Shown one piece after another: positions 972 through 23,028 of a stretch of 64,000 nucleotides of DNA. Positions within the stretch are counted from its first letter, which is position 1, and each line of letters begins with the position of its first letter. The notes under the pieces were generated by a model. That model did not search any database, was not told where the DNA came from, and saw only the letters and a program-made list of their open reading frames with translations. A program made the position numbers and the translations under genes. This DNA comes from Dacryopinax spathularia. Taxonomy: Eukaryota; Basidiomycota; Dacrymycetes; Dacrymycetales; Dacrymycetaceae. The DNA lies in assembly GCA_037974965.1 (NCBI GenBank), contig JBBPFI010000004.1, positions 1,860,001 through 1,924,000 of the forward strand, given 5' to 3'.

Positions 972-1858
972 ATGTCGGACTCGAAGTTAACTGTCTCGGC
1001 TCAGCCGAGCATCAAGGTCATTGGTGCTGGTCTGGGAAGGACTGGCACGATGTCGCTGTGCGTTGCAGTCCGAGGTGTGCTTAAGGGGTCATGCTGACTA
1101 TCGATCAGCAAGAAAGCACTAGAGATATTGGGGTTCGGACCGTGTCATCATATGTCTGTCTTGCCAGGCAGGCCAGACCAAATTCAGGGCTTTGTCGATG
1201 CATATCAAGGCGCGTTTATCTCCTGCAGTCCACCTGATACGCGCTAACATTAGTCTTAGGCAAGCCCGTCGACTTCAAGAAGCTCTTAGCTGGCTACGGC
1301 TCCATCCTTGACAATCCTGGATGCGACTTCGTGCCCGAGCTGATGGCCGCCTTCCCCGACGCCAAAGTCATCTTATCTGTCCGCGATAGCCCCGAGGTCT
1401 GGTGGAAGAGCGCGTCGGATACCGTGCTGCGAGCCATGACACCCTATATGCGTCCCTTGACGTTCTCTCTGGGACCGAGGCTATTCGGATTCATGCGCGT
1501 CCCGCACGAAGTTCGACGCGCCTGGATCCGCAAGTACGGCGAGCTGGGCCCCAACACGTACACGAAGCACAACGAACGGATGCTGCAGATCATCCCGAAG
1601 GAGAAACTGCTCGTGTTCAACGTCAAGGAGGGATGGGAGCCGCTTTGCAATTTCCTCGGCGTGCCAGTTCCAAAGGAGCCGTTCCCTAAAGTCAACGACT
1701 CTGCGCATTTCAAGAAGATGATAACGAGAATGCAAATGATGGCGGGCGCCGCATGGGTTGCCGAATTGAGTGTTCTCGGATTAATCATCTGGCAGATCAC
1801 GAAGCGAAGGCTTTGGGAGACGTTCAGCCTCAGAAAGCTGTTTGCCTCGTGGCACTGA
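972..1858 (+). CDS. Sulfotransferase-family P-loop protein with C-terminal membrane anchor (copy A)
   Basis: Exons 972-1057, 1109-1209 and 1260-1858 give a 261-residue protein. It has the fungal sulfotransferase layout (the family I know as Sulfotransfer_4). A PAPS 5'-phosphosulfate-binding loop, GAGLGRTGTMSL, lies near residues 20-31, followed by a GFGPCHHM motif. A 3'-phosphate-binding segment, SVRDSPEVWWKS, lies mid-protein, and a PFPKVND motif lies towards the end. The last 40 residues hold a hydrophobic segment ending in basic residues (KRR), so the protein is probably tail-anchored with its catalytic part in the cytosol. Family members are expected to move sulfuryl from PAPS to a hydroxyl or amine; the substrate is unknown. 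Intron 2 (1210-1259) starts with GC instead of GT. The paralogue at 2424 shows the same exon borders and fixes that choice. It lies just upstream of three CYP505 genes. Confidence 0.88.
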
Positions 1859-2423
1859 GAGCGAACGTGTTCTGCTTGCTGCCCTCGGGGATCCATGCTA
1901 CGTATGTCCCTAATTTATCATGCTTTATACCATATTTGAGATCTGCTCTTGCCTGCCGCGAATGCACAATTTGGACTGGTTATTGCGCCATTGCTCTTTT
2001 CTTTGTCTCGACGAAACTCTCGACGAACTCTTGTCTTTCAACCTTGACGACCACGAAATGCAGCCTTTGAGCTCTATTGACCTACTCAAGTTCAAAGATA
2101 ATATCCTCGCAATGGTAGTCTGTCTGGTAGCGATGACGTCGGACCTATATTGTTCATCCGCGTCGCGTGTTCTCTGCTTCCTGGGACTTCTTTCGCCTGA
2201 GACCAGCTACCTAATGGGGACGTCTTACTGCTGCGCACCTCTGTGACATGCACCTGCCTTCTACCGATAAATCGGTGCCCGCAAGTACGGCTGACGTCTC
2301 TCTGTGCTGCACGTATCGTGCATTGCCGACAATGCAAGTCGTCTTTCGATGATTTAGTTCTGAAGCTCGCAAGCGGTCGAGCGACGTCTCGGATCGCGTC
2401 GCATAGTTCCTACCGCCAACAAC
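1859..2423. other. Intergenic region between the two sulfotransferase paralogues
   Basis: It holds the 3' UTR of copy A and the promoter of copy B. Short ORFs on both strands show no recognisable protein features. I see no clear regulatory motif. Confidence 0.4.
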
Positions 2424-3287
2424 ATGTCAGACACACCCCCACAACTGCGTGTCGTTGGAGTTGGATTGGGGCGCACTGGAACGAGGTCTATGTGAGTGAT
2501 TATCATGCAATAGTTCTATCGAATGCTGACCGTGTTCTCCAGGAAGGAGGCGTTGGAGATTCTGGGTTTCGGGCCATGTCACCATATGGTCTCCTTGTTT
2601 GAGGATCCCAGGCGAGTCGATATGTTCCTGGATGCCTATGCTGGTGCGTATCTCGCTTGAGGGCAGTGGACTCTCAGAACTGATCATTGTCCAGGCAAGC
2701 CAGTCGACTGGCACAAGGTCATGGCTGGCTTCGGATCGACTGTCGACCATCCGACTACCGAGTTTGCGCTCGAACTGCTCGACGCATTTCCAGATGCGAA
2801 GGCGATCCTCACGACGCGCGACAATGCCGATGTTTGGTGGAAGTCGTTGACCGCGACGATCTATGCCGGCATGCGCTGGCAGACCCGGCTTTTGACCCTG
2901 TCCCTGCCCAGCAACTGGAAGTTCTCCGGTATTGGGAAAGGGGTAGGGGACTGGTATCGCCGGAACTATGGACCTATGGGACCGCAAAGCTACGAGAAGC
3001 ACAACGCGCGTATGATCGCGTCCATCCCGAAGGAGAGGCTACTCGTCTTTAACGTCAAGGAAGGGTGGGAACCGCTTTGCAGGTTCTTGGGCGTTCCGGT
3101 TCCCAATGTGCCTTTCCCACGTTTGAACGATAGCAAGGAGTTGTCAGCGAGGATCAGGAAGAACCAGATGATGGGAGTTGGGATGTGGGTTGTCGAGCTT
3201 GCCGTTGTTGGGCTGCTGGTGCGACAGGCGATCCGTGCAAGGGTGTGGGATTCGCTGCCCATCGGAAATATGTTACGTCTGGGATAG
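2424..3287 (+). CDS. Sulfotransferase-family P-loop protein with C-terminal membrane anchor (copy B)
   Basis: Exons 2424-2491, 2543-2643 and 2695-3287 give 253 residues. It is a tandem paralogue of the gene at 972 with identical intron positions and phases. The phosphosulfate loop reads GVGLGRTGTRSM near residues 11-22. The second PAPS element reads TTRDNADVWWKS, and the PFPRLND motif is kept. The C-terminal region again has a hydrophobic stretch (VVELAVVGLLV) followed by arginines, which predicts a tail anchor. Both copies keep the residues expected of an active enzyme of this family. Sulfation of a hydroxylated product from the neighbouring P450s is an attractive inference from context only. 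Confidence 0.88.
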
Positions 3288-3630
3288 ATGCCAAGCTTCT
3301 CGTTGCTACATCAATATTGCACCTACAGTTGGCATGAGAGGAGCCTGCACATTATGCAACCATGACATCATGTTCAAGCACGCGTTTTTCTTCTTCGTTC
3401 TGTACGAGATCAACTGTACTTACACCGGCTTTCGAATTTACTGTAGCGGACCATGTTCGCCTCAGCGCTTACTATGATGGACCTTACGCGCTGCAGACTA
3501 GGGAGAATATGGCGTACAGTATAAGCATCAATGTGGAGTAAAATTTACACACGGGCATAGGCCAATTGGGATCTGGGCTGACGGGATTGCTTCTTGTCCA
3601 ATAAGAGCACGAAGCGGCCCGAGAGAGGGA

Positions 3631-3643
3631 AACTGTACAGCAC
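3631..3643 (+). promoter_or_regulatory. Shared 13-mer AACTGTACAGCAC upstream of CYP505 copy 1
   Basis: The 13 bases are identical to 8317-8329. They contain the 8-bp palindrome CTGTACAG and lie 559 bp before the start codon; the twin lies 557 bp before its own. The regulator is unknown. Confidence 0.5.
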
Positions 3644-3820
3644 TCATCCCTCTCCCCGGCCTTGCCCGGATCCTTCTTCCGGCGATCGGCGAGACGGGAC
3701 AACAACACCTGCAGAATGCGAGGTTGTTCCAAGCAGGAAGATAGCGCTCATTAGTATGCTTTGCCGCAGTTTGGGTGACGATGCTTACGTGTTGATGGCT
3801 TGGATTGGCTCGATGCGGTC

Positions 3821-3828
3821 TCACGTGA
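3821..3828 (+). promoter_or_regulatory. TCACGTGA E-box upstream of CYP505 copy 1
   Basis: The palindrome TCACGTGA has its CACGTG core 368 bp before the start codon. It is a typical bHLH or Cbf1-type site. Comparable boxes lie 371 bp before CYP505 copy 2 and 367 bp before the GMC gene. Confidence 0.5.
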
Positions 3829-4107
3829 CTTCCTTGATGCGGGGTTGTCCAGTGGACGCGGTCCCTTACCTTCGAGAACGACCATCAACGTCGATCCACG
3901 ATTGGTACATACCTGCCGTCAACAACCCATCAACCTCCGGATTATCATGCGCCCAAGCAGTGCTGCGCTTACACGCCGGGCCAGATGGACCGTACTGTAC
4001 TTTTGTGGACCTTCTGGCCGCACGTTCGCCTACCACAGTCGGCCGGGATCGCGGTCCTTCCTTCAGCTGTAGGGACGAACCAGGGTGCACCCTAACATCC
4101 AAAGTCA

Positions 4108-4114
4108 TATAAAG
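4108..4114 (+). promoter_or_regulatory. TATA box of CYP505 copy 1
   Basis: TATAAAG lies 82 bp before the start codon at 4190, a typical distance for a fungal gene with a short leader. Confidence 0.5.
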
Positions 4115-4189
4115 ACATGGCGGTAATCGACAGAATCTAATGTGACCTCCTGCAAAAGAGCCGAGAACTGCAATTGCCGTCTGTGTACT

Positions 4190-7100
4190 ATGAAGCCGAT
4201 ACCAAGCCCGCCCGCTCTTCCCATTCTGGGCCATGTCGGAACAGGGCAGCTCGACCCGAAGCACATGGTGGTGTCGTTCCATATACTCCGACAGAAGTAC
4301 GGCGAGATCTACAAGCTCAATCTGGTGGGCACCGTCCTCATCATCTGCTCGTCCCAACGCATCGTCAACGAGCTGTGCGACGAAAGCCGATTCCACAAGC
4401 AAATTCGCGGGCCGCTGGAGATCTTGCGGAATGGTGGAGGAGACGGACTGTTCACTGCTTATGATGGCGAGGAGAACTGGGGTCTTGCACGTACGTACAT
4501 ACTGGGTACTTTGCATCGGCTTCGCTCATTGTTCTTCAGATCGGATTCTCATGCCGGCCTTCGGACCGTCCAAGATCCTGAGCATGTTCGACGACATGCT
4601 GGACATCAACTCTCAGCTCCTGTTGAAGTGGGAGCGCTTCGGTCCTGACGTCTCATTCGACCCTGCCCAAGATTTCACTCGGTTGACATTCGATACGATC
4701 GCGTTATGTGTGATGAACTATCGGTTCAACAGCTTCTATCGGGAGGACATGCATCCGTTCATCGGCGCGATGGTCAATTTCCTGTCGGAGAGCGGGTTCC
4801 GGTTTCAGCGACCCAAGCTCATACAGAGCTTAATGACTGGTACCAACAAGAAGTATGAAGAGGATATTAAGCTGATGGTCCAAGTATGCGATGACAGTAC
4901 GTCAATTCAATCAGGACCCTTACTTTTATACTTACCTACCCTAGTCGTCGCACATCGGAAATCCCATCCGCTGGAGGGGAAAAGTGACTTGCTCACCCTC
5001 ATGTTGGAAGGCAAAGACCCGAAGACGGGGAAGAAGTTGCCGGACTCGAACATCCGCAATCAACTGATCACCTTTTTGATCGCGGGGCACGAGACGACCT
5101 CTGGCCTCTTGAGCTTCGCCCTCTATTATCTCGTGTCCAATCCGCCGACATATGCTGCTCTGCAGAAGGAAATTGATACAGTGCTGGGCAAGGAGCCACT
5201 CAATGTGCATCACTTGTCGAAACTTGAGTACGCGAATGCGGTCCTCCGAGAGTCGCTTCGTCTCTCGCCCACCGCTCCTGGCTTCGGCCTCAGTTGCGTC
5301 AAAGACTCGGAGGTTCTCGCAGGAGAGTATGAAGTGCTCAAGGACTGGACATGCGTCGTGAACCTTCACGATCTCCACCGCGACCCCGTCGTATGGGGTG
5401 ATGATGCCGAGGAGTTCCGCCCTGAGCGCATGCTCGTCGGCAAATTCGAGGCTCTCCCTCCGAACAGCTGGAAGCCCTTCGGCAATGGAGCTCGCGCTTG
5501 CATTGGTCGCCCACTCGCATGGCAGGAAAGCTTGATGATGCTCGCTACCCTGTTCCAGCGCTTCGACATCCGCTTCGACGATCCGAGCTACCGACTCAAA
5601 GTCAAGCAGACGCTCACCATCAAACCGGAAGGGTTCAGAATTCGTGCCATCCCTCGTCAGGGCATTCGACCACTCGCGCTTCCCGGTAGTTTGGGCGCCG
5701 CTGCTGGTGGTGCGGCTCATACCAACGACCTCGCTTGGGAACGGAAGAAGCAAACCACGGTTAGCGGAGGTGTACCCATGCTCATCCTCTTCGGCAGCGA
5801 TAGCGGCACCTGCGAAAGCTTCGCTCAGCAAATCGCTGGTGATGCCGGCGGACATGGTTTCTCTCCGAAGATTGGCTCCCTCGACACCGTCGAAGACGTC
5901 AAGCTTCTGCCTCGCGATGGACCTGTCGTAATCCTTACCTCCAGCCGCGAGGGACAGCCACCCGAAAACGCCGTTCACTTCGTTCACAGCATTGAGAACA
6001 TGGACACGACAAACAAACCCCTCCAGGGTGTGAGATACGCCGTTTTCGGTGCAGGCAACCACGATTGGGCACGTTCGTTCCAGAGGATACCCAAGCTTGT
6101 GGACTCCCGTTTGGAGGATCTGGGTGCTGAGCGGCTCGTGCCGCGCGGCGAAGGCGATGCTGGTGGGCCGGACCTTTTTGGCGCCTTCGATGAGTGGGAG
6201 AGCGCATTATGGTCAACACTGAGCAAGGCCTTCAAGACGACACCCGCTTCTCCGGCGGACGATAACGAGAAGACAGGAGACCTTGTTGTGACAGTCACTG
6301 GCACGGCTCGGAATATCCTCCTTCGCCAGCCGGACTTGACCGAAGGCAGATGTATCGAGAACCGCCTGCTCACCGCGCCCGGCGCTCCTGAGAAGCGTCA
6401 CGTCGAGTTCCGGCTTCCCGAGGGAATGGCATATCGTCCCGGAGATTATTTGGCAATTCTTCCAGTCAACCCGCCTGAGCTCGTTCGCCGTGTTCTCACC
6501 TATTTCAACCTGCTTGGTGAAACCAAGGTCTCGATTCGCACAAGCACCCCCACATCACTGCCTACCGATGAGCCGGTCAGCGTGAAGGAACTCTTCTCGG
6601 AATACGTCGAACTAGGTCAGCCAATGACGCAACGCAATTTGGACGAGCTCCTGCGTTATGCGCCGAAAGAAGGCAGCGAACGGCAAGCTTTCGACAAACT
6701 GGTCGCCAACGCCAAGGCCGAAGTTTTCGGTAAACGTTTGTCATTGCTAGACTTCCTGGAACGTAGCCCATCTCTGAATGTGCCTCTTGGTGTATTCATC
6801 AAGCTTCTGCCCGCTATGCGTATCCGCCGCTACTCGATCTCCTCTTCGCCTCTTTCGAAGCCCGGCCACTGCACCCTTACCTTCTCAGTCATCCGGGGCC
6901 CCTCCCCGGGTGGCAATGGCGAGTTCATCGGCGTGGCAAGCAACTATTTAGCGTCTCTGAAGCCTGGAGATGGTGTCTCCCTTGCCGTACGCGCAAGTGC
7001 GGTGAACTTCCACCTGCCTGCCGACAGTACCAAGCCCATCGTCATGTTCTGTGCCGGCAGTGGGTTTGCGCCGATGCGCGGCTTCATCCAGGAGCGTTCG

Positions 7101-7557
7101 GAGCAGCTCGCGGCGGGTCAGAATGTGGGGAAGGCCTTGCTTTTCTTCGGCTGTAGGGATCCCGAGAAAGACTTCATCTATGTGGATAGCGACCTTGCCG
7201 AATGGGTTGAGGCCGGCGCTGTGGACGTGCACCCTGCTTTCTCGCGCCACCCGGAGCTCTCGGAAGGCTGCAGATACGTTCAGGAGTGAGTCCCATTATT
7301 ACCTACCATTAACACACCTTGCACATCGTACTCACGCCCTTGGAAGCCGAGTCTGGAAAGACCGTGAACTCATCCGACCACTCTTGCTAGACGAGTCGGC
7401 CCGGTTCTACACCTGCGGTATGAGCGAGATGGCCCACGCAGTGCGTGAGCGATGCGTCGACATCCTCGCGGATTCCGGCCAGTATGACAGAGCGCAGAGT
7501 GAGGAGTTGTTCGACAAGATTATTCAAGAGAGGTTTTCCACTGACGTGTTCGGATGA
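4190..7557 (+). CDS. CYP505-type self-sufficient cytochrome P450/reductase fusion (copy 1)
   Basis: Exons 4190-4490, 4540-4896, 4945-7285 and 7347-7557 encode 1069 residues, the usual length of the P450foxy/P450 BM3 family. The P450 half shows the I-helix AGHETT (about 265-270), the K-helix ESLR (about 321-324) and the haem loop FGNGARACIG with the cysteine near 404. A linker leads to an FMN domain (LFGSDSGTCESF, from about 490). An FAD/NADPH reductase follows, with RRYSISSSP, a GVASNYL motif and the NADPH-binding FCAGSGFAPMRGF, ending in the family's DVFG tail. Such enzymes hydroxylate fatty acids near the omega end using NADPH with no separate reductase. The start MKPIPSPP matches its paralogues. 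No membrane anchor is seen, so it is probably cytosolic. Confidence 0.95.
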
Positions 7558-8289
7558 GCATTGCTTGAAGTGGCTAACAAGGTGTGGGTTAGGAATCTTC
7601 AGTTACGTCGGCAGCTGTTCTCAAAATCGTTGTGAATGTCATGATTTTTTTAAGCGCCGTTGAAATCGAACCAGGCCACCCAGCGTAGCTGGCCCGTGGT
7701 TCCGAGCCAAATTCGCAGAGCCTCCAGAGGAATAAGAACATAGTACTAGTAGGATCAGACGTCTGGTCAAAGTACTTGGACCTGGATAGGGTGCGGGCCC
7801 CGGGAGAGAGACTCGAAACCTACTCTGCATGACATCCAATGTTACATTGCGTCCTCTCAGTACTCAATGAGCTTTTCTCGGGACAGACCTCTGGAGTGGT
7901 GCTCGTATTTCAACCGTAATTCATTCGTTTGACCGCTGACTAGTAGGCTCGCGCTTGTCTCGGACATAGTTCGTCGGAACCCCGACCATATAATCTCACT
8001 TTCGGCAGGAAACGACCCGGCATTACGTGGCCTGTTCATGCACTCTTTTATGGGTTAGCTATAGCAGGGACCTCTCACTTGGCCAGAGAATCGAAGACAA
8101 GAACTGCAGTGAGTCGTGCGCGGTAGAGGAGTTGCCCGCGAGCTGGGGCGGCTGACTACTGATTACTATTGTTACGGCATGTCATATAGTAGAGATGAAC
8201 AACCAATCTGGATTCCTGAGCGGCAAGAGCCATCTCTACCGCTTTGTTGTTCTGGAAGAGTAGCTGAAGACCGCCCAACAGCGCAGTTA

Positions 8290-8297
8290 TCACGTGA
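8290..8297 (+). promoter_or_regulatory. Distal TCACGTGA E-box upstream of CYP505 copy 2
   Basis: A perfect TCACGTGA palindrome lies 584 bp before the start codon at 8874 and 27 bp before the shared 13-mer. It has no counterpart at that position in copy 1. Confidence 0.45.
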
Positions 8298-8316
8298 TTC
8301 GAAACCCGCGACCGAG

Positions 8317-8329
8317 AACTGTACAGCAC
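8317..8329 (+). promoter_or_regulatory. Shared 13-mer AACTGTACAGCAC upstream of CYP505 copy 2
   Basis: It is identical to 3631-3643 and placed 557 bp before the start codon (559 bp in copy 1). The spacing from it to the proximal CACGTG box is also alike (186 bp here, 191 bp in copy 1). Confidence 0.5.
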
Positions 8330-8501
8330 CAAGTCGTCTTCTCCGGGCCAACACCGAGTTCGTTCTCGGACTTCGCTGGCTTCGGTGCTGGCTACGGGGC
8401 GCGGATGGAGCTGGTCAGCGGCCCCTCACAGGTGCTTTGCCGTCCTTTACCAGTCAATGCTTACGCTATACTCTCAGAAACTGGCGAGCGATGGCATGCT
8501 G

Positions 8502-8508
8502 TCACGTG
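8502..8508 (+). promoter_or_regulatory. Proximal TCACGTG E-box upstream of CYP505 copy 2
   Basis: The CACGTG core starts 371 bp before the start codon, close to the 368 bp seen in copy 1. Confidence 0.5.
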
Positions 8509-8785
8509 CCAAAGTGATAGCAGGGTCCCCTACCGTGGACCGGACGCGTCTGTTCGCGCAGCTTGACCACAGTAGTCATGAATATCAAAGCAGAAGCTAA
8601 ATCTCCACCGAAAGGATCGGTCTATCATGCTCTGCATGTCTTCTGCCGGCTGCGACGGGCTGTACCCAGCGCTGGTCCTGTATACACGGCATGAACTCGT
8701 CATCTGGCGGCCGGACACGTTGTCCGCTCACGTTGCGCCTGGAGTTGACACGGCCCGCTCGAGCACGGCTCAACAGTGAGAACAG

Positions 8786-8793
8786 TATATAAT
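8786..8793 (+). promoter_or_regulatory. TATA box of CYP505 copy 2
   Basis: TATATAAT lies 88 bp before the start codon at 8874; copy 1 has its TATA element at 82 bp. Confidence 0.5.
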
Positions 8794-8873
8794 GGCAGCC
8801 AGGCTGAAGCTCGAACCGGCATACCAAAGATCCTACACTCTCAGTGATTTTCTCTTGAACAAGATCTCTAGCG

Positions 8874-11800
8874 ATGACTGCTGTTGCGGCGATTCCCAGC
8901 CCACCAGCTCTTCCGCTCCTCGGCCATGTCGGTACGGGATTGCTCGAGCCTGCACATATGCAAGCATCCTTTCATCTACTGCGCCAGAAATATGGCGAAA
9001 TATACAAGCTTAATCTGGTTGGGAACGTCGTCGTAGTCTGCTCATCGCAGCGCATCGTGAACGAGCTCTGCGATACGAGTAGATTCCATAAGCAGGTCGC
9101 TGGAGGACCACTCGAAGTACTTCGGAACGGCATTGGAGATGGACTGTTCACGGCCTATCATGGTGAAGAAAACTGGGGAATCGCACGTAAATTGCTACTA
9201 CTCTGCATGCGGGCGTGTACTGACGGCACAATTGACAGATCGTATCCTCATGCCGGCTTTCGGGCCATCAAAAATCTTGAGCATGTGCGATGATATGCTT
9301 GATATCAACTCGCAACTGCTGCTGAAGTGGGAGCGATTCGGACCCGACGTAGCTTTCGACCCTGCTGAAGATTTTACACGGTTGACGTTCGATACCATCG
9401 CACTGTGCGTCATGAACTACCGCTTCAACAGCTTCTACCGAGAAGGCATGCATCCTTTCATCGGAGCAATGGTCAACTTCCTCCTTGAAAGCGGGCTGCG
9501 TAGCCAGCGACCCAGTCTCATCCAAGGATTGATGACCAATACAAACAAGCGGTACGACGATGACATCAAGTTGATGGTGGATGTATGCGATGAAAGTGCG
9601 TTTTCCATATCTTGCCCCACGCAACTCTTGCTTACTTTGTTCAGTCGTCGCGTATCGTAAAGCGCATCCGCTTCAGGGCAAGACCGACCTCCTTAGCCTC
9701 ATGTTGGAAGGCACAGATCCGAAGACCGGGAAGAAACTGCCTGACTCGAATATTCGCAATCAGCTTATCACGTTCTTGATCGCCGGTCACGAGACCACCT
9801 CCGGATTACTCAGCTTCACACTGTATTATCTCGTGTCTAACCCATCCGCCTATGCTGCCTTGCAAAAGGAGATCGATACTGTTCTGGGCAAGGATCCGCT
9901 CACCGTGCAGCATCTGTCCAAGCTGGAGTACACCAACGCGGTGCTCCGCGAAGCACTTCGCCTTTCGCCAACCGCCCCGGCATTTGGGCTAAGCCCGAAC
10001 AAAGACAGCGAAGTGATCGCTGGAACGTACGAGGTCTTCAAAGACTGGACATGTCTTGTGAACCTCCACGACTTGCACCGGGACCCTGCCGTATGGGGAG
10101 ACGATGCGGATGAGTTCCGTCCTGAACGGATGCTGGACGGCAGGTTTGAAGCCCTTCCGCCCAACAGCTGGAAACCGTTCGGTAACGCAGCCCGCGCTTG
10201 CATTGGTCGCCCGCTGGCGTGGCAAGAGAGCTTGATGATGCTCGCTACATTATTCCAGCGCTTCGACATCCGTTTCGATGACCCAAGCTATCGCCTCAAG
10301 ATTAAGCAGACACTGACGATCAAGCCTGAGGGTTTCAAGATCCGAGCCATTCCTCGTCATGGCTCTAGACCAATATCGTTTCCTCGCGGTCTAGCCGCTC
10401 CTTCACCCGCCAATGGTCCCGCTAATGGCTCGGCACCTGAGCGCAAGCAGACCGCCATCGCCGGAGGAGCGCCTCTGCTGGTCTTGTTTGGCAGCGACAG
10501 CGGCACGTGCGAGGGCTTCGCACAGCAGATTGCCGGCGACGCCGGAGGGCACGGATTCTGCCCAACCATTGGATCGCTGGACACAGTTGAGGACGTAAGA
10601 CTACTCCCCCGCGATGGGCCTGTCATCATCATCACCTCGAGCCGCGAAGGTCATCCGCCTGAGAACGCTGTACACTTCATCCACGCTATCGAGAACTTAG
10701 ACCGTTCAACGAATCCCTTGCAAGGGGTGAAGTACGCTGTTTTCGGTGCCGGAAACCACGACTGGGCTCGCACTTTCCAGCACATTCCGAAGACGGTGGA
10801 TCGACGCCTCGAAGAACTGGGCGGCGAGCGGCTTGTGCCACGCGGCGAAGGTGACGCTGGTGGACCCGACCTCTTTGGCTCCTTCGATGAATGGGAGGCC
10901 AGTCTATGGCCAACCTTGGTCAGAGCTTTCGACGCGAAAGCTCCCGCCACGACGGAGGACGACAACAAAGTAATGGACCTCGTCGTGACTGTCACGGGAA
11001 CCGCCCGCAATGTTGTCCTACGCCAGCCAGAACTGATCGAAGGAAGGTGCATCGAGAACCGCCTCCTGACCGCCCTTGGCACACCTGAGAAGCGACACGT
11101 GGAGTTCCGCCTCCCTGAAGGGATGACATATCGCCCTGGGGATTATCTCGCCATCCTGCCCGTCAACCCGCCTGAGCTCGTGCGTCGAGCGCTCAACTAC
11201 TTCAACCTGCTTGGAGAGACGAAGGTTGCGATTCGAAGCCAAGCACCGACGACTCTGCCGACGGACGAGCCGATCAGCGTCAAGGAGTTGTTCTCGGAAT
11301 ATGTCGAACTGGGTCAACCGATGACGCAGCGCAACCTCGACGAGATTATGCGTTACGCTCCGAAAAAAGGACAAGACCGTGAAGCTCTCGACAAGCTAGC
11401 CGCAAATGCTAAAACAGATATCTTTGCTAAGCGACCTTTCTGTGCTGGACTTCCTGGAACGGCATCCTTCTGTCAACCTCCCGCTAGGCGCCTTTATCAA
11501 GCTTCTGCCCTCCATGCGCATCCGAAGATACTCCATATCTTCTTCGCCGCTCTGGAAGCCTGGGCACTGCACCCTCACGTTTTCCGTCATCCGCGAGCCG
11601 AACCCCGACGGGCAAGGCGAGTTCATCGGCGTAGCGAGCAACTACTTAGCCTCGCTCAAACCAGGAGACGGCGTCTCCCTGGCAGTTCGCGCGAGTGCGG
11701 TTAACTTTCACCTACCCGCAGATACCAGCAAGCCCATTGTGATGTTCTGCGCTGGAGCTGGATTCGCCCCAATGCGTGGGTTTATTCAGCATCGTGCGGA

Positions 11801-12247
11801 ACAGCTGGCAGCGGGTCAGAATGTGGGGAAGGCGCTCTTATTCTTCGGCTGTAGGGACCCGGAGAAGGACTTCATTTACGCTGACAAGGAATTGGCGGAA
11901 TGGATCGACGCCGGTGCAGTGGACGTACGGCCTGCGTTCTCCCGCCGGCCGGATCTTTCCGAGGGCTGCAAGTATGTGCAAGAGTAAGTGTTTTCGCTCT
12001 GCTTTCTTCGCACAACCGAGCTAACGCGTATAACAGTCGCGTGTGGCACGATCGCGAGGCCGTCCGCCCTCTTCTTATGGACGATTCCGCCCGATTCTAC
12101 ACGTGCGGGATGAGCGAGGTGACGCATGCCGTACGAGAGCGATGTGTCGACATCCTTGCTGAGGCACGAGGGTCTGATCGGAAGGAGAGCGAAGAGATGT
12201 TTGACAAGATCGTCCTGGAGAGGTTCTCTACCGATGTGTTTGGCTGA
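8874..12247 (+). CDS. CYP505-type P450/reductase fusion (copy 2), with a one-base frameshift in the FAD domain
   Basis: Exons 8874-9186, 9239-9595, 9645-11983 and 12037-12247 match the exon plan of the flanking copies. The P450 half is intact (AGHETT, REALR, haem loop FGNAARACIG), and so is the FMN domain (LFGSDSGTCEGF). At 11435-11436 the text reads CGACC where both paralogues show the equivalent of CGAC. This extra C breaks the frame after IFAKR, and the conserved LDFLERHPS resumes in the next frame. The rest, including the NADPH site and the DVFG tail, is intact. Without the extra base the product would be 1072 residues. The break is either a recent inactivating change or a sequencing error. 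As written, the product keeps the P450 and FMN parts but ends in about 90 unrelated residues. Confidence 0.88.
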
Positions 12248-13303: not shown

Positions 13304-16300
13304 ATGTCACTCAAGCCGATCCCCTCTCCTCCCTCTTGGCCCCTGGTGGGACACGCCATCACCGGCCTCGTCGATCCAGCGAACACCCAATCCTCCTTCC
13401 GACTCCTTAGGGCAAAATATGGCCCGGTCTACACGCTCAACTTCTTCGGTCGCGTCCTCGTGCTTGTCTCGTCGCAGAAACTGGTGAACGAGCTATGCGA
13501 CGAGAGCCGGTTTCACAAGAAGGTTGAGGGTGGTGTACTGGAAGTAGTCAGGAATGGAGCTGGAGACGGGCTGTTCACGGCTTACGATGGCGAGGAAAGC
13601 TGGGGTATCGCTCGTACGTCAAAGCTCCCCTCTCGAGGTGCATACATGCTGATAGCAGGATCGACAGACCGCGTTCTCATGCCCGCCTTCGGGCCCTCCC
13701 AAGTCCTAGGCATGTTCCCCGCCATGCTCGACATCAACTCCCAACTCCTCCTGAAATGGGAGCGTTTCGGGCCCGACACGCCCTTCGACCCGGCAGAAGA
13801 CTTCACCAGGCTGGCTTTCGATACGGTAGCGCTATGTGCGATGTCATATCGCTTCAACAGCTTTTATCACCAGGAGATGCCGCCGTTTATTGGTGCTATG
13901 GCGAGGTTCTTGCTCGAGTCTGGGCTGAGGATGCAGAGGCCGAAGGTTGTGCAGAATTGGATGAGCGAGACGAATAGGCAGTACGAGGCGGATATTAAGC
14001 TGATGGTGGATGTATGCGACCAGAGTACGTCTTCATTCTGTTTAGCTTGCACGGTGCTGATCATTTCGGTACAGTCGTTGCATACCGCAAGTCCCACCCA
14101 CTGGAAGGCAAGCCCGACCTGCTCTCCCGCATGCTGGAAGGGAAAGACCCCAAGACCGGCCGTGGCCTCACAGACGCCAACATCCGTAACCAACTTATCA
14201 CCTTCCTCATCGCAGGACACGAGACCACCTCCGGCCTGCTCTCCTTCACCTTGTACCACCTTCTCTCCTCCCCAGCCGCCTACGCCACTCTACAAAAGGA
14301 GATTGACGACGTCCTCGGGCAAGATGCTATCACTCCCGCCCACCTTCCAAAGCTCGAGTACACCAACGCCGTCCTACGCGAATCTATCAGACTCAACCCT
14401 CCCGCAGGGGCGATCGCCGTCGCCCCCGTCGCGGAGACCGAGATCCTCGGTGGAGAATACGAAATCCGGCACGAATGGAGCTGCGTGATCGATATCTACG
14501 GGCTGCACCGCGATCCCGCCGTCTGGGGCGAGGACGCCGAGCTCTTCCGGCCCGAGCGTATGCTCGGCAACAAATTTGAGCAGCTCCCCCCTAATGCCTG
14601 GAAGCCTTTCGGGAATGGCTCGAGGGCTTGCATTGGAAGGCCGCTGGCGTGGCAGGAGAGCGTTATGATGCTCGCCACCTTGTTTCAGCGGTTTGATATC
14701 CGGTTCGATGACCCGGGGTATCATCTCAAGATCAAGCAGACGTTGACGACAAAGCCGAAAGACTTCAAGATCCACGCTATTCCGCGGAAGGGAGCTAGAC
14801 CGGTTGCGGGGCCTGGAGGCGGACCAGCTACTGCAGTGCCGGAAACACCTGTGAGAACGCAAACTGCGCCACTCACCCCGCTCGACTTGAAGGGGAAGAA
14901 GACCTCGCCGATGTATGTCTACTTTGGGAGTAATACCGGTTCTTGCGAGGGATTCGCACAGCAAGTCGCGTCTGACGCTGCCGCGCACGGGTTTGCGGCT
15001 GCCCTTGCCCCGCTTGACAGTGTCGAGGACATCTCGACATTGCCGAAGGATGGACCCGTGGTTGTCCTTACTGCGAGCTACGAAGGTCAGCCGGCCGACA
15101 ATGCCGCCCACTTCGTCCAAGCGCTCGAGAACTCTTCGACAGAAAATTCACCGCTGAAAGGGGTGAAGTATGCCGTCTTCGGAGCTGGCAACCGCGAATG
15201 GGCCAGAACGTACCAGCGTATCCCGAGGCTAGTCGACGTCAGGCTCGAAGAGCTTGGCGCGCAGAGGCTTGTACCTCGTGGTGAAGGAGATGCAGGCGGG
15301 GCAGATCTATTCGGCGCATTCGACACGTGGGAGAAAAACTTGTGGCCTGTCCTCGCTCAGGTATTCGGCACCACAGCACCTTCGCCCAGCAGCCTCGAGG
15401 CTGAGGACGACCTGGTTGTGAGCGTCACCGGCACAGCACGGACGATCCGCCTGCGCCAGCCTGATTTGGGGCAAGGAAGATGCGTCGAGAACCGCCTCCT
15501 TACCGCACCAGGAGCGAACGAGAAGAGGCATATCGAATTCTCCCTTCCTGAAGGTGTGGAGTACCATCCTGGCGACTACCTCGCCATCCTCCCTCTCAAC
15601 CCTGCCGAGTCGGTCCGTCGCGTGCTCAGCCACTTCAAGCTGCTCGGCGAGACCAAAGTTGCAATTAAGAGCAAAGGTCCGACCACTCTCCCGACAGACG
15701 AGCCTATCAGCCTACAGGAGCTGTTCACCGAATACGTTGAGCTCGGCCAGCCAATGACCCAGAGGAACCTGGAAGATATCATGCATTACGCGCCTGCCAA
15801 GGGGCCAGAGCGAGAGAAGGTCGACAAGCTGGTACAGAACGCCAAGAGCGAGATCTTTGACAAGCGACTGTCGGTGCTCGACCTGCTCGAACGGTATCCG
15901 GAGCTGGACGTCCCACTGGGAAAGTTCATCAAGCTCCTTCCCTCGATGCGTATCCGACAGTACTCCATCTCTTCCTCGCCGCTCTGGAAGGCGGACCACT
16001 GCACGCTCACAATCTCTGTTCTCCGTACGAAGGCCTTGCACGGCGATGGAGATTTCGTCGGCGTGGCGAGCAACTACCTCGCCTCGCTCAAACCAGGCGA
16101 CAGCGTCTCCCTCGCCGTCCGGCCCAGCGCGGCTCACTTCCACCTTCCAGCAGACAGCACGAAGCCCATAGTGATGTTCTGCGCCGGAAGCGGGTTTGCC
16201 CCAATGCGCGGGTTCATCCAAGATCGCGCAGAGCAGATCGCGGCTGGGCGGAAAGTGGGCAAGGCGCTCCTGTTCGTTGGCTGCAGAGGTCCGGAGGAAG

Positions 16301-16674
16301 ACTTCTTGTATGCTAATGCTGAGCTGAGTCAATGGATCGAGGCTGGTGCTGTGGATGTAAGGCCGGCGTTCTCGCGTCACCCTGAGCTTTCGGAGGGATG
16401 CAAGTATGTGCAAGAGTACGTCCTTGCCTCCTCTTCCCTTTCTATCTGTGCTGATGCCAGATTCAGCCGTGTATGGCGCGACCGCAAACTGCTCAGCCAA
16501 TACTACGAAGCAGGCGCGCGCTTCTATACCTGCGGTATGCTCGGCATGTCCCAGGGCGTCAGGGAAAAGTGCATCGAGATCATCGCCGATGCAACTGGAT
16601 GGACTCGGGAGAGGGCAGAAGAAGGCTTCCAGAAGTTGTCGCTGGAGAGGTTCTCGACGGACGTGTTTGGTTGA
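13304..16674 (+). CDS. CYP505-type self-sufficient cytochrome P450/reductase fusion (copy 3)
   Basis: Exons 13304-13613, 13668-14024, 14075-16415 and 16467-16674 encode 1071 residues with the same three intron positions as copies 1 and 2. Motifs are complete: I-helix AGHETT, K-helix ESIR, haem loop FGNGSRACIG, FMN domain FGSNTGSCEGF, FAD site RQYSISSSP, NADPH site FCAGSGFAPMRGF and a C-terminal DVFG. After ESIR it reads LNPPAGAIAV where the other copies have LSPTAP followed by FGLS. That is a substrate-proximal segment in BM3-like enzymes, so its substrate preference may differ. Its upstream region also lacks their shared motifs. It is clearly a paralogue but has diverged most of the three. 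Confidence 0.95.
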
Positions 16675-16854
16675 GACGGAAAATTGCGTAGGATTGGGAA
16701 GGAGGTGATAAATTACTGGAATGGATTCGTGTACTTGTATGGAAGGTTGATAAATACTATCTTGTCTCTCCACACTCTTCTCCTGCCTGTCTCAGTTAGA
16801 CAGCTACCAACGTGGGACGACGCGGTATGAAGGTTGTAGCGACACGCTGGGGGC

Positions 16855-17553
16855 TTAATCGCAGAAGGTGATCGCAATGTTGACCTATTGCACAACACTT
16901 TGTCATCTCATCTCCTTGCGTACACCCCGGAACAACTAAACTTACATTATCAGAAGTGCATTGCCTCTGAGCCGAATAATCCGTCGACGAGCAGAACGCA
17001 CCATACGGGCAGCAACTCGCGGACGTGCCTGCCAACCAACCTCATCAGCTCCCCGTCCTCCCCAACCCCTTCCAAACAAAAAAAAAAAAGGAAGAGCCAC
17101 TCACAATCATTCCCCACCCCATCACACCCCCCATAAAACCCAAATCCCGCGGTGTTAGAGAACGCATGCGGCGGGATCAGACTAACATCCGCACTGGACA
17201 TCTTCCCCCCATTGGCATCGGGGTTAAAGAGGCTAAACTCGACCGTCGTGCATCCTTCGCCGTTTTCGCCACAGGAGCCCGTTTGGAGGTAGGCGATTGC
17301 TGCCCCGAGGGGACCGGAGGAGGTGTAGGGCGAGCCGGTGGAGAGAGTTTGGCCGGATTGGAGGAGGGTGGGGGTGCCGTACGCACAACTTTTGGAAAGG
17401 GCGTGAGCGGGATACGGGCAGAGGGGGAGGGAGGGAGAGAGAAGGAAGGGCGTACTTGTTGGTGAATGTTACGGTGTGTGATTCGGAGCGGCTTACGACG
17501 GCGCCGGAGACGGAGGTGAGTATGGCGAGGAGAAGTAGGGCGAAAGAAAGCAT
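16855..17553 (-). CDS. Small secreted cysteine-rich 'glycopeptide' family protein (copy 1)
   Basis: Read on the minus strand, exons 17456-17553, 17105-17388, 16946-17028 and 16855-16884 give 164 residues. A hydrophobic signal peptide (SFALLLLAILTSVSGA) precedes a mature part that opens with HTVTFTNNC. It continues with YLQTGSCG, a SLIPPHAFS motif, a GNDCTSASCC cluster and the C-terminus AITFCD. Ten cysteines are likely to form disulfides. The same exon lengths (284, 83 and 30 nt for exons 2 to 4) occur in the paralogue at 27341. Agaricomycetes have many such proteins annotated as glycopeptide. The opening and closing motifs recall thaumatin-like proteins, but I cannot show a common fold. It acts outside the cell; its role is unknown. 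Confidence 0.85.
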
Positions 17554-18556
17554 CTTTCTAGCTACAGAGAGTGGAATGTGGGCCCTTTGGGAATGCTCGA
17601 CGAAGGGCCGGGGAGTTGGTTGCCTTCAGATGGCTCGTGCATGAGCAGTATTTGTACTTTGCTAGATTGGAGACATGAGTTCGGTACAGTTAGAGCAGAA
17701 CCAGATCAATCAGGCTTCCTTCCTTCGCACATGGTGACTACAACTCTGGGTCATGTCGCAAGGAGCTCAGGATCAGCCAGGAGCATCCCGAGTCCCACTC
17801 CCAGCGGCAGAGCAACTCCAGGAGGGAGCAGCGTCAAGCATGTTCGACAAGCAAGGAGCTGAGGTCGAGCGGAACAGCGTGCGAGTGAAGGATGCGTAAC
17901 AGACTTTAGAAACCGGAGCTGAACTATCGGCGAAGAAGCACCGAGGGCAGTGCGACGAACGCGGAGCGTCAGATCATCCAGCAAAACTGGTCGGAATTGA
18001 GGCTGTCAGAGAGACATCAAAAAGCGCTCGCCACAAGGAGTTGCCTTGCAACAGGCGCCTGGAAAGCAAGGGACAATCATGAGTTGCGTCGCAAGTACCA
18101 GGAGTGTACGAGGAGCAAAAGGGTGTCAGAAAGAAGATCGCCAAAGTCGCCACGAATTCATCACTCCTCTTATCAGTACAGCCTTTTAACACGTGACCTA
18201 CTAGAAGCCAATCAACGGAGAAGCATCATTGTCCATCACTGATGACGAGAAGAACGAACAAGAAGAACAGAGAAGGACAAACTCCACACATCATCTCCTT
18301 CTCTGGGGTGAGAACGCCGACACCAGCGGGAGTAGTCGGCGATAAGTAGTTCCCGATGCCGATCGCCGCATACATAGCCGGCGCTTTCCCGATCGAAAGG
18401 GATCGCGTCAGCCAAATTGCCAAATCGGTAAACCCATCCACCGATCCCGGGGCCATCGAGTCGAGCTCATCACCGTCTTCTTCACCTCTCCTCGTCGTCT
18501 TCCTTACGTCCTACCAACGTCCTTCCCCCTCCCAGAGTTAGAGGCAGAAGTGGGAG
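17554..18556. other. Intergenic region, divergent between the glycopeptide gene and the GMC oxidoreductase gene
   Basis: No gene is supported in this 1.0-kb stretch. A CACGTG box lies at 18190-18195. Small ORFs on both strands have no family features. Confidence 0.4.
18190..18195 (+). promoter_or_regulatory. CACGTG E-box upstream of the GMC oxidoreductase gene
   Basis: The core starts 367 bp before the start codon at 18557. The equivalent distances in CYP505 copies 1 and 2 are 368 and 371 bp, which hints at common control. Confidence 0.4.
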
Positions 18557-20782
18557 ATGCCAGACGATCGTGCTCCATCGACGTCTTACGCTCTCTTTCT
18601 TGCGGCGTTATGGCGCTGGCTTCAGTTTCTGTGGTGGTATTTCCCCCGAGTTTTGGCGGAGAGTACGTATCCGGAGGTGAGGCCTGAAGATGTCGGGATT
18701 CCCTTGAAGGTTAAGGAGGATGTGGTGAGCGTGAAGGACTTGCCGGGTGAGGGGGAAGAGGAGGGTGTGTGGGACTATGTTGTCGTCGGAGGTACGTCTG
18801 CTTCTTCTGCCCAGGAGACGAGAGGGGTGACCACGAGGATAGGTGGGACCTCAGGATGCGCCTTAGCTTCAAGACTGAGCGAAACTCCCAATGTCCGTGT
18901 CCTACTGCTGGAAAGAGGCCCAGTATCAGACACGTTCCTCTCCCGCGTCCCCCTAATCTCGACCAACTTCGCCCGTGCCAACTCACCAAACTACCGCTGG
19001 CTGCCCGTCCCCCAGCCAGAGTTCGACGTCGGCTCTTCCTTTTCCTCTTCCTCTTCTTCGTCGCAGGATGGGATGAAGAGCAGTTCTTATACCTCGAATG
19101 GAGGGGAGAGGGGAGGGGACGAGCAGGGGAAGGCGGATATGGCTATGGTTAGTGGGAAAGTGTTGGGAGGGACGAGCAGGATCAATAGTATGCTGTATAC
19201 GCGCGGAGCTGGCGAGTGGGAGGCGATGGCCAGAGCCGGGCGAAAGGGGTGCGTCTCCTCCATTTCCTCCTTTCTCCTGCTTACGTCTCTCGACGGGATG
19301 CTGATGCATGATTAGATGGGGCTTCAACGACGTCCTCCCCGACTTCCTCAAATCCGAACGCGCCCTAGGGCCCCTTTCCCTCCGACCAGGACATTCCCAA
19401 TCCGGGCGCTGGCAAACCCGCACATACGGACATTACCTTCTTCCATCGTACAACCCGTGCGTCTCGGCCGCCCAATCCGTCGGTCTGCCCTATATCAAGG
19501 ACCTCAACGCTCCCTCGCGAGCGCCGTATGGCGTGGGAGATGTGGACGTCAGTATTGACGGGAGGGGACAGAGGTGTAGTGCCTACACCGCCTTTTTGCC
19601 CGCGGAGGTGGCGCTCGAGCGGAAAGGAAGGCTGGGAGTATGTACGGAGACGATCGCCCGAAGGATCATATTCGACGAGCAGGAGGGGAAGGAGCCGAGA
19701 GCGGTAGGGGTCGTGATAGAGGACGAGGACGAAGAGCAGGCGAGGACGAAGGGCAAGTTCGTGGTTCGAGCCAGGAGAGAGGTGATCCTTTGTTCGGGGG
19801 CGATTGGGAGTCCGCAGTTGTTGCAGTTGAGCGGGGTGGGGCCGAGGGGTTTGTTGGAGGAGAAGGGGATTAAGGTGGTGAAGGATCTCCCTGGGGTAGG
19901 GGAACATCTGGTTCGTCTCTCGCCTCTGTATCTTTCTTTTGTGATTGCTAACATGGCGCCTGCATGTAGCAAGACCACTTCGGCGCCGCCGTCCAATACC
20001 TCACCCCCCTCACCCACTCCTTCCACGCACTCGAACGTCCCCTCTACGCCCTGCGCGATATCCTCCGGTACATCCTCTTCGCTTCCGGGATCTTCCTCGC
20101 GCCCATCGTCCAAATCTCAATCTTTACCAAATCCTCCCTCATCTCACCCGTCGACGGGACGTGCACTGCAGCGACCAAAGCGGCCCAAGCGGGGGAAAGC
20201 GCGCTCGATCCGGCTAATATCCCGGATGTGGAGATCATGCCTATGCCTGCTGGGCTTTCGGTGCCTCCTCCTCCCGGAGAGGGGGCAATGTCGTTCCTCA
20301 CTGTACTTGCTACTCCGTATTCGAGAGGAAGGCTGAGGATCGAGAATACGAATCCGCGCTCAAGACCTGCGTGCGAGCTCAATTTCCTTTCGGACCCGAG
20401 GGACTGGGAAGTCATGAAGCGCGGTCTCAAGCTCTCGCTCGCCATCGCCGCTCAGATGAAGAAACAAGGTTATCCGTTAAGGGACCAATGTACGCTGCCG
20501 ATGGACGCGAGTGACGAGCAGGTGAAGCAGTTTGTGAGGCGGCATGGGAGGACGACGTATCATTATTCCAGCACGTGCAGGATGGCGCCTGAGGAAGGGG
20601 ACGGGGATGGACCGGGGGTGGTGGATGATGAGCTGAGGGTGCATGGGGTGAAGGGCCTGAGGGTGGCGGATGCGAGCATCTTCCCGAGCATATTGAGTGT
20701 CCATCTGCAGGCGCCGTGCGTTATGGTCGGGGAGAAGTGTGCGGATATGATCAAGCGGGAGTGGGGAGATGTGGACCAATAA
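18557..20782 (+). CDS. GMC-family FAD oxidoreductase with N-terminal membrane anchor
   Basis: Exons 18557-18791, 18843-19248, 19316-19910 and 19970-20782 encode 682 residues. Residues 11-34 form a hydrophobic, Trp-rich segment that predicts a signal anchor. The ADP-binding fold is DYVVVGGGTSG (73-83). The first GMC signature is near VLGGTSRINSMLYTRG and the second near GAIGSPQLLQLSGVGP. The catalytic histidine pair should be the H of HYSSTCRM and the H of SVHLQAP. A Ser-rich low-complexity insertion (SSSSSSS) sits before the first signature and is not usual for the family. GMC enzymes oxidise alcohols or aldehydes with FAD. The substrate is unknown, but a hydroxylated product of the nearby P450s would suit. 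It is not a classical secreted aryl-alcohol oxidase, because it has an anchor rather than a cleavable signal. Confidence 0.9.
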
Positions 20783-20941
20783 TGGTGGTGACGGTGTAAC
20801 TCCTGCGATTTTCCGCACGAACATTCACCTCTCCTCTTCGTAGTATGATTGTTAGTATAATGGGATGGTTTTGCTAGCTCTACAGATTCAAGTGAAGTTG
20901 CGGCGGTTCGGAAGTTGCCGCTATCTCCGATACGGAAACCG

Positions 20942-23028
20942 CTAAGTCCGATCCTCTGTCGCTTGCTCGTGAGGGGCATGTCTCTTCTCCGCTTGTGTCA
21001 AGGCTGGTCGCGGTGGTTCCGCGATATGTTCCTCGTGCATGGCAGGTATTGTCATGGGTGCTGTATCGGGCGCAAGGACCTCCGCATTCTGGACAGCCTT
21101 TACGCCGATAACGCCGATGCCTCGTAGAAGGACGAAGGCAACCACCGCAGCTGAGAAATATCATAAGCACGAGTAGAAAGCAGAATTTGACGACGTACCT
21201 CCTGCGGCGAAACCGAAACATGTCCACTGCGCTCTTCTGTAGCCGTACAGCTGGACGTCGAGGGGTGCATTCGAGCTGTCGGCGTTAAGTGTCAAGCCTT
21301 GGGCGGCCATCTGCTTGCGGACCGAGGTGTCATACACGATCGTCGTAATAGTCGTGGTAAACGAGACGCCGAGCTGAAGAAGAGTCAGCGCTGAAGCACG
21401 CATTGAGAGGTGCTGACTTACCGTTATAATCGTGTTGAAAATGCCTCCGGCGAGGCTCTGCTCCTCCAGCAGGGCAACCTTTGCTACGAACAGCGCTCCA
21501 CCGCCCATCGTCGTATCAGCACCGAATACGTCCAGCACTGCCGCAGGGAAGCCGTACGCCCAGTATATCGCATTGGTGTCGATGATCGCGAAAAGAAGAC
21601 AGGCAATGGCCGTGCCGATGCAGCCGATTACTGAAAGGGGACTCAGCTTCGACTAACAGATAGATGCCAGGAATACGCACCAATCAGGAGATGCCCCGAG
21701 ACATGCGCCGCGATGAGAGCAAAGAGGACGTTGATGGAAATTCCCACAATCTGCATGGGGATGAACCGAACGGTCGTCTCGATTGGTTCGAATTGTTTGT
21801 AATCCTGATAGCTGCGGAGTAATCAGTACAATGGAGGGTATTCCGAAGCAAATGAGCACTTACTATAGAGTGGCCCAATATTGCCAAGCGGAGAAAGCGC
21901 CCATAACCAGGAAGGCGACGAGAAGCATCGCTGCGAGCTTTCCCTTGCCCCTCTTGAAAATGTTGAGGCGGATCAAAGGCGGAAGCGTCAACCGAGTTTC
22001 GACGTAGTGTTCCCATGCGAGGAAGCAAGCGAATAACACTCCAGCGAGTATAAGAAGTGCGATGATATCTGAAGATGCATGTGAGCTGGAGAAAATATCG
22101 GGAAAGAAGACGCGTACAAGGTGTCTTCCACCCCTGAGGAGCGATCTCTCCCTGCCCGAGGCAGAACATGAGGAAGATCAAGCTTGCAGTGATGAAGAAC
22201 GCTCCAAGCCAGTCCACGCGCTTGTCCTCAAAATGGCCAGGATGGTTCGGGAACGCCAGCAGACCCATGATGAACACAACTGCACCGATACCCGCGGAGA
22301 CGAAGAAGATTGCTCGCCAGCCTACGGGCGCATACTGGGTCGTCAGACCACCAATGATGCTCCCCAGGGCTCCACCGGTAGGGGCTCCCGCTTGGAAAGT
22401 AGCGAATGCGATCGTTCTTGCCTGACTCGGAGGGAAGGTGTGCGCTAGGATTCCGACCGCACTCGGTACGACTGCTGCACCGCCCATACCGCCCAGAGCG
22501 CGGAGCATGATGATCCCTATGCCATTCTTGGCGAAACCGCATCCGAGGGTGAACGCGACCCACCAGACGGTGCCGGCGAGGAAGACAAGCTTGCGGCCGA
22601 ATATGTCTGCTAACCGGCCGAAGAGGAGCAGGAAGCATCCGGATGTCAGCGCGTAGGCTGTGACGAGCCATTGGAGCGATGCGGAGTTGATGTTGAGCTC
22701 TTGCTGCATTGAGGGAATCGCAATGACCAGTGCTTGGATTGACGAGCTCTGATACACTGTCAGAAGAGCACCATGGGGCGACGCGGTATACACGCATACA
22801 TTCATCATCATCGCCAACACAGCACAGATGATAATGCTGAGCGAACGCACGGACGCCAATTTTGGAACGACCTGGTGTGATCGTCAGCACTTTCAAGCGC
22901 ATACATTTGCGATACAGGCGCACCAGAGGTTCCTTGTGTTCCTCAACGCTGCCTGCTCTGACAGGCTCAGCCAGCTCCTCCATCTCCATCTTCTCACTGT
23001 CCTCCATATGCGAACCAGGAGCCGCCAT
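20942..23028 (-). CDS. MFS transporter, drug:H+ antiporter-2 (14-helix) type
   Basis: Minus-strand exons are 22924-23028, 22800-22871, 22118-22748, 21864-22068, 21681-21811, 21422-21630, 21199-21373 and 20942-21150, giving 578 residues. The intron between 22800 and 22748 is 51 nt and in frame. I infer it from its GT-AG ends, a CTGAC branch site and the better fit of the first helix to the family. Motif A, GRLADIFGRK, lies in the loop after the second helix, and an antiporter motif C-like GAPTGGALG follows. The N-terminus is acidic and cytosolic, and about 14 hydrophobic helices can be traced. It would sit in the plasma or vacuole membrane and export small molecules against protons. It runs convergently with the GMC gene, only 159 bp apart, as expected for an exporter attached to a metabolite pathway. 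Confidence 0.88.

Follow-up and report, generated by a model that had tools for sequence, protein, structure and literature searches.

Do the sulfotransferase and cytochrome P450 genes that lie side by side on a contig of the basidiomycete Dacryopinax spathularia act on the same compounds? The genes are found in the left part of the window, the whole stretch of 64,000 nucleotides analysed here (GCA_037974965.1, contig JBBPFI010000004.1, positions 1,860,001 to 1,924,000). An initial annotation had read positions 972–23028 of the window as a cluster for oxidation, sulfonation and export. Both coordinates are confirmed: 972 is the start codon of the first sulfotransferase gene and 23028 is the start codon of an MFS transporter gene. 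The enzyme classes it named are borne out by Pfam, which finds PF17784 twice, P450 fusions, GMC_oxred_N and GMC_oxred_C, and MFS_1. The enzymes are real and mostly intact. The firm unit of the locus comprises two sulfotransferases (ST1 and ST2) and three P450s, which form a row of five genes, all on the plus strand. The explanation we favour, tentatively and from sequence, is oxidation plus sulfo-conjugation of lipophilic compounds by neighbouring, tandem-duplicating PF17784 and CYP505-type families. The five genes are as follows.

972–1858, plus strand: ST1, PF17784 sulfotransferase, 261 aa; exons 972–1057, 1109–1209 and 1260–1858; Pfam Sulfotransfer_4, E 3.1e-63
2424–3287, plus strand: ST2, PF17784 sulfotransferase, 253 aa; exons 2424–2491, 2543–2643 and 2695–3287; Pfam E 3.5e-61
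4190–7557, plus strand: CYP505-type P450-reductase fusion 1, 1069 aa, 4 exons, intact; four Pfam domains; heme motif FGNGARACIG
8874–12247, plus strand: CYP505-type fusion 2, frame break near 11,430; separate searches with the 817-aa and 252-aa pieces
13304–16674, plus strand: CYP505-type fusion 3, 1071 aa, 4 exons, intact; Pfam domains; 51% identity to the 7p6l heme domain

Exons were joined by hand into complete frames with GT-AG junctions and one GC-AG junction. The modelled introns are short (48–67 bp) and numerous, which fits a fungus. Within each tandem array the introns occupy shared places, and sequence identity is 53% between the sulfotransferases and 68–83% among the P450s. Both arrays are therefore real duplications.

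The two sulfotransferase-family genes are confirmed by Pfam at the E values listed above, with scores of 213.9 bits (ST1) and 207.2 bits (ST2) against a gathering cut-off of 22.8. The matches cover positions 1–215 and 1–214 of the 215-position profile. ST2 is a tandem duplicate of ST1. The introns of the two genes are 50–51 bp long and lie at two matching places, one of them directly after the P-loop motif. Intron 2 of ST1 (1210–1259) is modelled with a GC start, and the corresponding ST2 intron starts with GT. Between ST1 and ST2, nonsynonymous divergence (dN) is 0.45 versus a synonymous divergence (dS) of 1.99, so the sulfotransferase family is under purifying selection.

When bacterial and archaeal genomes were scanned, 490 of 521 pattern matches proved to be relatives; the best 80 were used for alignment and for neighbourhoods. 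The alignment was built from the matched parts of these 80 bacterial relatives. Residues invariant in 80 of 80 and kept in both ST1 and ST2 are, in ST2 numbering, G14, R17, T20, A26, G31, F32, P34, H37, M38, D74, P76, R98, W104, S107, L173, W181, L184, P193 and P198. The scan patterns, FGPCHHM and FNVKEGW, bias some of these columns; R17, T20, D74, R98 and S107 fall outside them and constitute the better evidence. R17 and T20 belong to the P-loop, which is thus kept in both proteins. We take the five residues to be sites of catalysis or of binding to the sulfo donor 3'-phosphoadenosine-5'-phosphosulfate (PAPS), namely the P-loop, the R...S pair for the 3'-phosphate, and the Asp. ST1 and ST2 look active, because every residue invariant in the 80 relatives is retained.

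The closest solved relatives of ST2 in a PDB search are 9kf1, named only as a sulfotransferase family protein (E 5.2e-42), and SgdX2 (8y9p, E 2.8e-41). SgdX2 is reportedly an activating sulfotransferase in sungeidine biosynthesis, going by a paper title in a reference list, and its sulfate is said to leave so that a double bond or rearranged product is formed. Its place among the two closest solved relatives raises the question of whether sulfonation in D. spathularia is likewise an activation step. We consider this very improbable, as the locus holds no pointer to elimination and the reaction of 9kf1 is unstated in the structure table. The next PDB relatives are Schistosoma SULTs, at E 2.5e-23 and weaker. 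The Schistosoma enzyme sulfates oxamniquine (PMC9323829). The action of relatives on small molecules and the invariant residues are both counted in favour of sulfo-conjugation of lipophilic compounds. Viral contigs gave 59 pattern matches for the sulfotransferases and 75 for the P450s, with no relatives among them. In a plasmid collection, 16 records hold sulfotransferase relatives, all bacterial by name, and none covers 80% of the query.

ST1 and ST2 each extend 48 residues beyond the domain, with a single hydrophobic stretch in each extension. On the Kyte-Doolittle scale, the C-terminal 19-residue stretch reaches 1.73 in ST1 and 1.84 in ST2; no stretch of P450 copies 1 and 3 attains 1.6. The octanol scale gives −4.0 for ST1 and −2.3 for ST2; stretches of the P450s reach −6.8, and the tails are thus no stronger. 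Among the 80 bacterial relatives, 64 have a tail of fewer than 20 residues, and three have a C-terminal stretch of at least 1.6, these being stronger (2.0–2.3). The description of the two proteins as tail-anchored is therefore marginal, being backed by the Kyte-Doolittle values but not by the octanol scale. A membrane tether is plausible from these profiles and, if true, would fit a lipid substrate.

The initial annotation had also named three tandem self-sufficient P450s. Copies 1 and 3 are intact, but the middle copy is not. Pfam finds p450, Flavodoxin_1, FAD_binding_1 and NAD_binding_1 in both intact copies, and the I-helix AGxxT, ExxR and FxxGxRxCxG motifs are all present. Each of the three genes has three introns at the same places, and exon 2 is 357 bases long in every copy. 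Divergence among the copies (dN 0.11–0.24; dS 1.5–3.3 or not computable) indicates that the P450 family is under purifying selection. In copy 2, the 5' piece contains p450, Flavodoxin_1 and part of FAD_binding_1, and the 3' piece contains the rest of FAD_binding_1 and NAD_binding_1. Its heme loop, FGNAARACIG, is one residue off the motif. Compared with copy 1, copy 2 has a dN of 0.120 before the break (810 codons) and 0.112 after it (252 codons), with a dS of 3.3 before the break and not computable after. Long-standing decay of copy 2 was rejected, as dN is nearly equal on either side. The break looks recent, with copy 2 under constraint up to then, or else it arose in the assembly.

Copy 3 shares 51% identity over 451 residues with the solved heme domain 7p6l, and copy 1 shares 46% identity over 449 residues with 9wuk, a solved fusion P450. 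The CYP505 name is given above 40% identity to a named CYP505. We take 7p6l to be the fungal CYP505A30, its family and species being absent from the structure table, and 9wuk to be of CYP102 type. By this comparison, CYP505 is the likely family of the window P450s. Members of the family are described as hydroxylating fatty acids at subterminal positions (PMC4950769, PMC3505482), and CYP505D6 is broad in substrate according to a review (PMC8594250).

Taken together, these enzymes suggest a conversion in the overall manner of phase I and phase II metabolism. The P450s would hydroxylate an aliphatic chain close to its end, the chain being that of a fatty acid, a fatty alcohol or another lipophilic compound. 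The sulfotransferases would then transfer the sulfo group of PAPS to a hydroxyl of such a compound. This order of steps, like the nature of the substrates, any shared regulation and export, is inferred. A dedicated sulfo-lipid pathway is possible. The more specific proposal that the five-gene array makes alkyl sulfates, with the sulfate borne on the chain and the sulfotransferases tethered to the membrane by a C-terminal helix, is improbable as it stands.

The other features up to position 23028 bear on how far a common function may extend.

59–537, no strand: foldback element (inverted-repeat, resembling a miniature inverted-repeat transposable element), upstream of ST1; nested complementary arms
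16930–17553, minus strand: small secreted-protein gene, 3' end approximate; introns and a start resembling a signal peptide identified by eye
18557–20782, plus strand: GMC oxidoreductase, 682 aa, 4 exons, tryptophan-rich N-terminus; spliced model; Pfam GMC_oxred_N and GMC_oxred_C
20942–23028, minus strand: MFS transporter, 578 aa, 8 exons; Pfam MFS_1; best NCBIfam match a DHA2 model, below cut-off

The GMC enzyme had been called a membrane protein. On the octanol scale its tryptophan-rich N-terminus scores strongly, but on the Kyte-Doolittle scale it stays below 1.6. Choline dehydrogenases and alcohol oxidases are its nearest PDB matches, with fatty acid photodecarboxylases lower in the list, and the choline dehydrogenase models of NCBIfam match below their cut-offs. 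For the transporter, described earlier as a DHA2 protein with 14 helices, the best NCBIfam model is indeed DHA2 EmrB (TIGR00711), but its score of 135.3 bits is below the cut-off of 230.2. The 14 helices are not established either: the Kyte-Doolittle scan gives 14 partly overlapping rows and the octanol scale gives 12 separate segments. Both the GMC oxidase and the MFS exporter may work towards the same end as the sulfotransferases and P450s, but they are the weaker members of the set.

The gene at 16930–17553 had been presented as the only secreted-protein gene in between. The gene is present, but it belongs to a local family of three. A relative on the opposite strand lies at 27,527–27,911, with 65% identity over 405 columns, and a third member was recognised by eye. 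The three small genes, marked by CGYGTP...LQTGSCGxNGEGCT, are located at 16930–17553 (minus strand), 27341–27910 (plus strand) and 28398–28960 (plus strand), with approximate ends. Two members, including the gene at 16930–17553, gave no match in Pfam. This gene is probably outside the pathway.

Several observations weigh against a joint role of the sulfotransferases and P450s, and they bear on two further readings. Within the P450 row, copy 2 is broken in the assembled sequence. At the positions of Arg47 and Tyr51, the carboxylate-holding residues of P450 BM3, a by-eye comparison with the BM3 motif finds T/I in copy 1, N/V in copy 2 and R/L in copy 3. As no copy keeps both residues, it is uncertain that the substrate is a fatty acid. 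Next to the row, the local secreted-family member separates the P450s from the GMC/MFS pair. Upstream regions of 560–600 bases from seven genes were also compared with 200 shuffles. No exact 9- or 10-base word occurs in at least three of the seven regions. Words of 8 bases in at least three regions number 11 versus 8.4 in the shuffles (45 of 200 reach this count), which is no excess. Words of 7 bases are mildly in excess, at 124 versus 97, a count that none of the 200 shuffles reaches, and this is a mild point in favour of a joint role; paralogous promoters contribute to the excess, as does, on the ST1 side, a portion of the foldback. The 10-base words common to the ST1 and GMC upstream regions were rejected as a promoter signal, since the ST1 copies sit inside the foldback.

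These observations bear most directly on the reading of the whole 22 kb as one dedicated biosynthetic cluster, in which hydroxylation, sulfation or oxidation, and export would yield a surfactant-like lipid. Gene content and order fit such a cluster, and the 7-base words point mildly towards shared regulation. Fungi commonly carry MFS and GMC genes, however, the GMC (plus strand) and MFS (minus strand) genes are convergent, no longer upstream words are held in common, and the set has no backbone enzyme. A single 22-kb cluster is doubtful because the gene between the P450s and the GMC gene belongs to a secreted family with members at 27.3–28.9 kb. What stands of the proposed oxidation-sulfonation-export cluster is the enzyme classes and the logic of a P450-made hydroxyl that is then sulfated; the secreted-family gene inside it, the broken P450 and the lack of long shared upstream words count against the rest. 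In favour of the cluster, chain-sulfated fungal lipids have been reported, among them an alkylresorcinol whose sulfation pathway is stated as unknown (PMC11677658). On balance, the 22-kb cluster is unlikely, and a route dedicated to exporting surfactant-like products is hypothetical.

Within flanks of up to 8 kb, shorter at contig ends, a CYP102/505-like P450 accompanies the PF17784 gene at none of the 80 bacterial loci. One of the 80 has another P450 in its flanks, as found with a motif scan that may overlook others. The window-P450 profile missed that P450, and therefore detects close relatives only. A GMC relative is present in the flanks of one locus and an MFS relative in those of seven. 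In the fungus Phanerochaete chrysosporium, five tandem CYP505 (P450foxy) genes in 43 kb were attributed to duplication in 2005, and the available text mentions no sulfotransferase neighbour (PMC1184071). The lack of a CYP102/505-like neighbour at the 80 loci and the P. chrysosporium duplications speak for a neighbourhood without common function, in which the CYP505, PF17784, GMC, MFS and secreted families expanded independently in an accessory stretch to the left of a block of more widely conserved genes that begins at about 29 kb.

The surroundings agree with this alternative. The same stretch contains duplicates of two secreted-protein families, the foldback element lies at its left edge, and from about 29 kb matches to the SAE2, RING, CDC45, RRM, FYVE, SPT6 and SRP54 families follow. 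The region from 1 to 29 kb thus resembles an accessory stretch in which genes have been duplicated locally. Independent expansion is a real possibility; against it stand the direct adjacency of the sulfotransferases and P450s on one strand and the complementarity of their chemistry. Oxidation plus sulfo-conjugation by the two families is tentatively preferred.

The second secreted family consists of two small cysteine-rich genes, 23709–24374 and 24982–25636, both on the minus strand, with approximate ends and 66% alike. Two fragments of this pair gave no Pfam match; the two proteins look thaumatin-like. The foldback is not part of the pathway. Its arms at 50–104 and 492–546 are 78% complementary and those at 127–224 and 373–470 are 93% complementary, and over 489 columns the element agrees with its reverse complement at 77.7%. 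It holds a 20-base repeat unit at 394–516, and no second match to it occurs in the window at E 1e-4. Of ten selected open reading frames (ORFs) located in the gaps or next to them, none matched a family above its cut-off and one had a weak match (15.2 bits versus a cut-off of 26.2), which counts in favour of the five-gene row. Farther right, a 29-base unit is repeated 3.8 times at 35929–36038 with 96% matches, and the segments 53196–53356 and 55112–55272 are 72% alike in an alignment of 162 columns. Both fall in a region where none of six ORFs examined, from 48 to 56 kb, has a Pfam match.

Fungal sulfation has been little studied. A 2024 survey of fungi with a PF00685 query found SULTs in Ascomycota only and considered that Basidiomycota may lack cytosolic SULTs, naming uneven sampling as a likely partial cause (PMC11677658). 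A review labels PF17784 as "S. mansonii-type" and pools 1,747 FungiDB sulfotransferase genes over six entries, PF17784 being one; fungal PF17784 genes may therefore already be counted there (PMC11625862). In a literature search that covered few subscription papers, no paper joined CYP505, basidiomycetes and sulfotransferases, and no title described a basidiomycete gene cluster with a sulfotransferase and a cytochrome P450. Intact-looking PF17784 sulfotransferases beside lipid-oxidising P450s in a fungus are a concrete candidate for the origin of sulfated fungal lipids. If the alkyl sulfate pathway were true, it would provide a genetic basis for lipids such as the reported 12-sulfoxyheptadecyl resorcinol, and a fungal sulfation route via PF17784 in place of the PF00685 SULTs. 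Conservation of the sulfotransferase-P450 pair, if found, would turn the search for sulfated metabolites towards fungi thought to lack sulfotransferases.

The array can be compared with several known systems. The P. chrysosporium genes are likewise tandem self-sufficient P450 fusions, five in 43 kb compared with three in 12.5 kb here, but they contain 17–22 introns per gene whereas the window genes contain 3 (PMC1184071). Schistosoma SULT-OR and SgdX2 are similar in sequence to residues 1–207 of ST2. They come from other organisms and act on other substrates, and the matches stop before the hydrophobic C-terminal stretch of ST2. HwSULT and AsSULT are fungal PAPS-dependent sulfotransferases that act on small molecules, but they belong to PF00685 and not, as in the window, to PF17784 (PMC11677658). 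The pairing itself has a counterpart in Mycobacterium tuberculosis, where CYP128A1 hydroxylates menaquinone-9 and Stf3 then sulfates it to give sulfomenaquinone; a P450 followed by a sulfotransferase is therefore a known working order (PMC7404182). That system is bacterial and its P450 is of another family, but there too a P450 hydroxylates a lipid that the product of a neighbouring gene sulfates.

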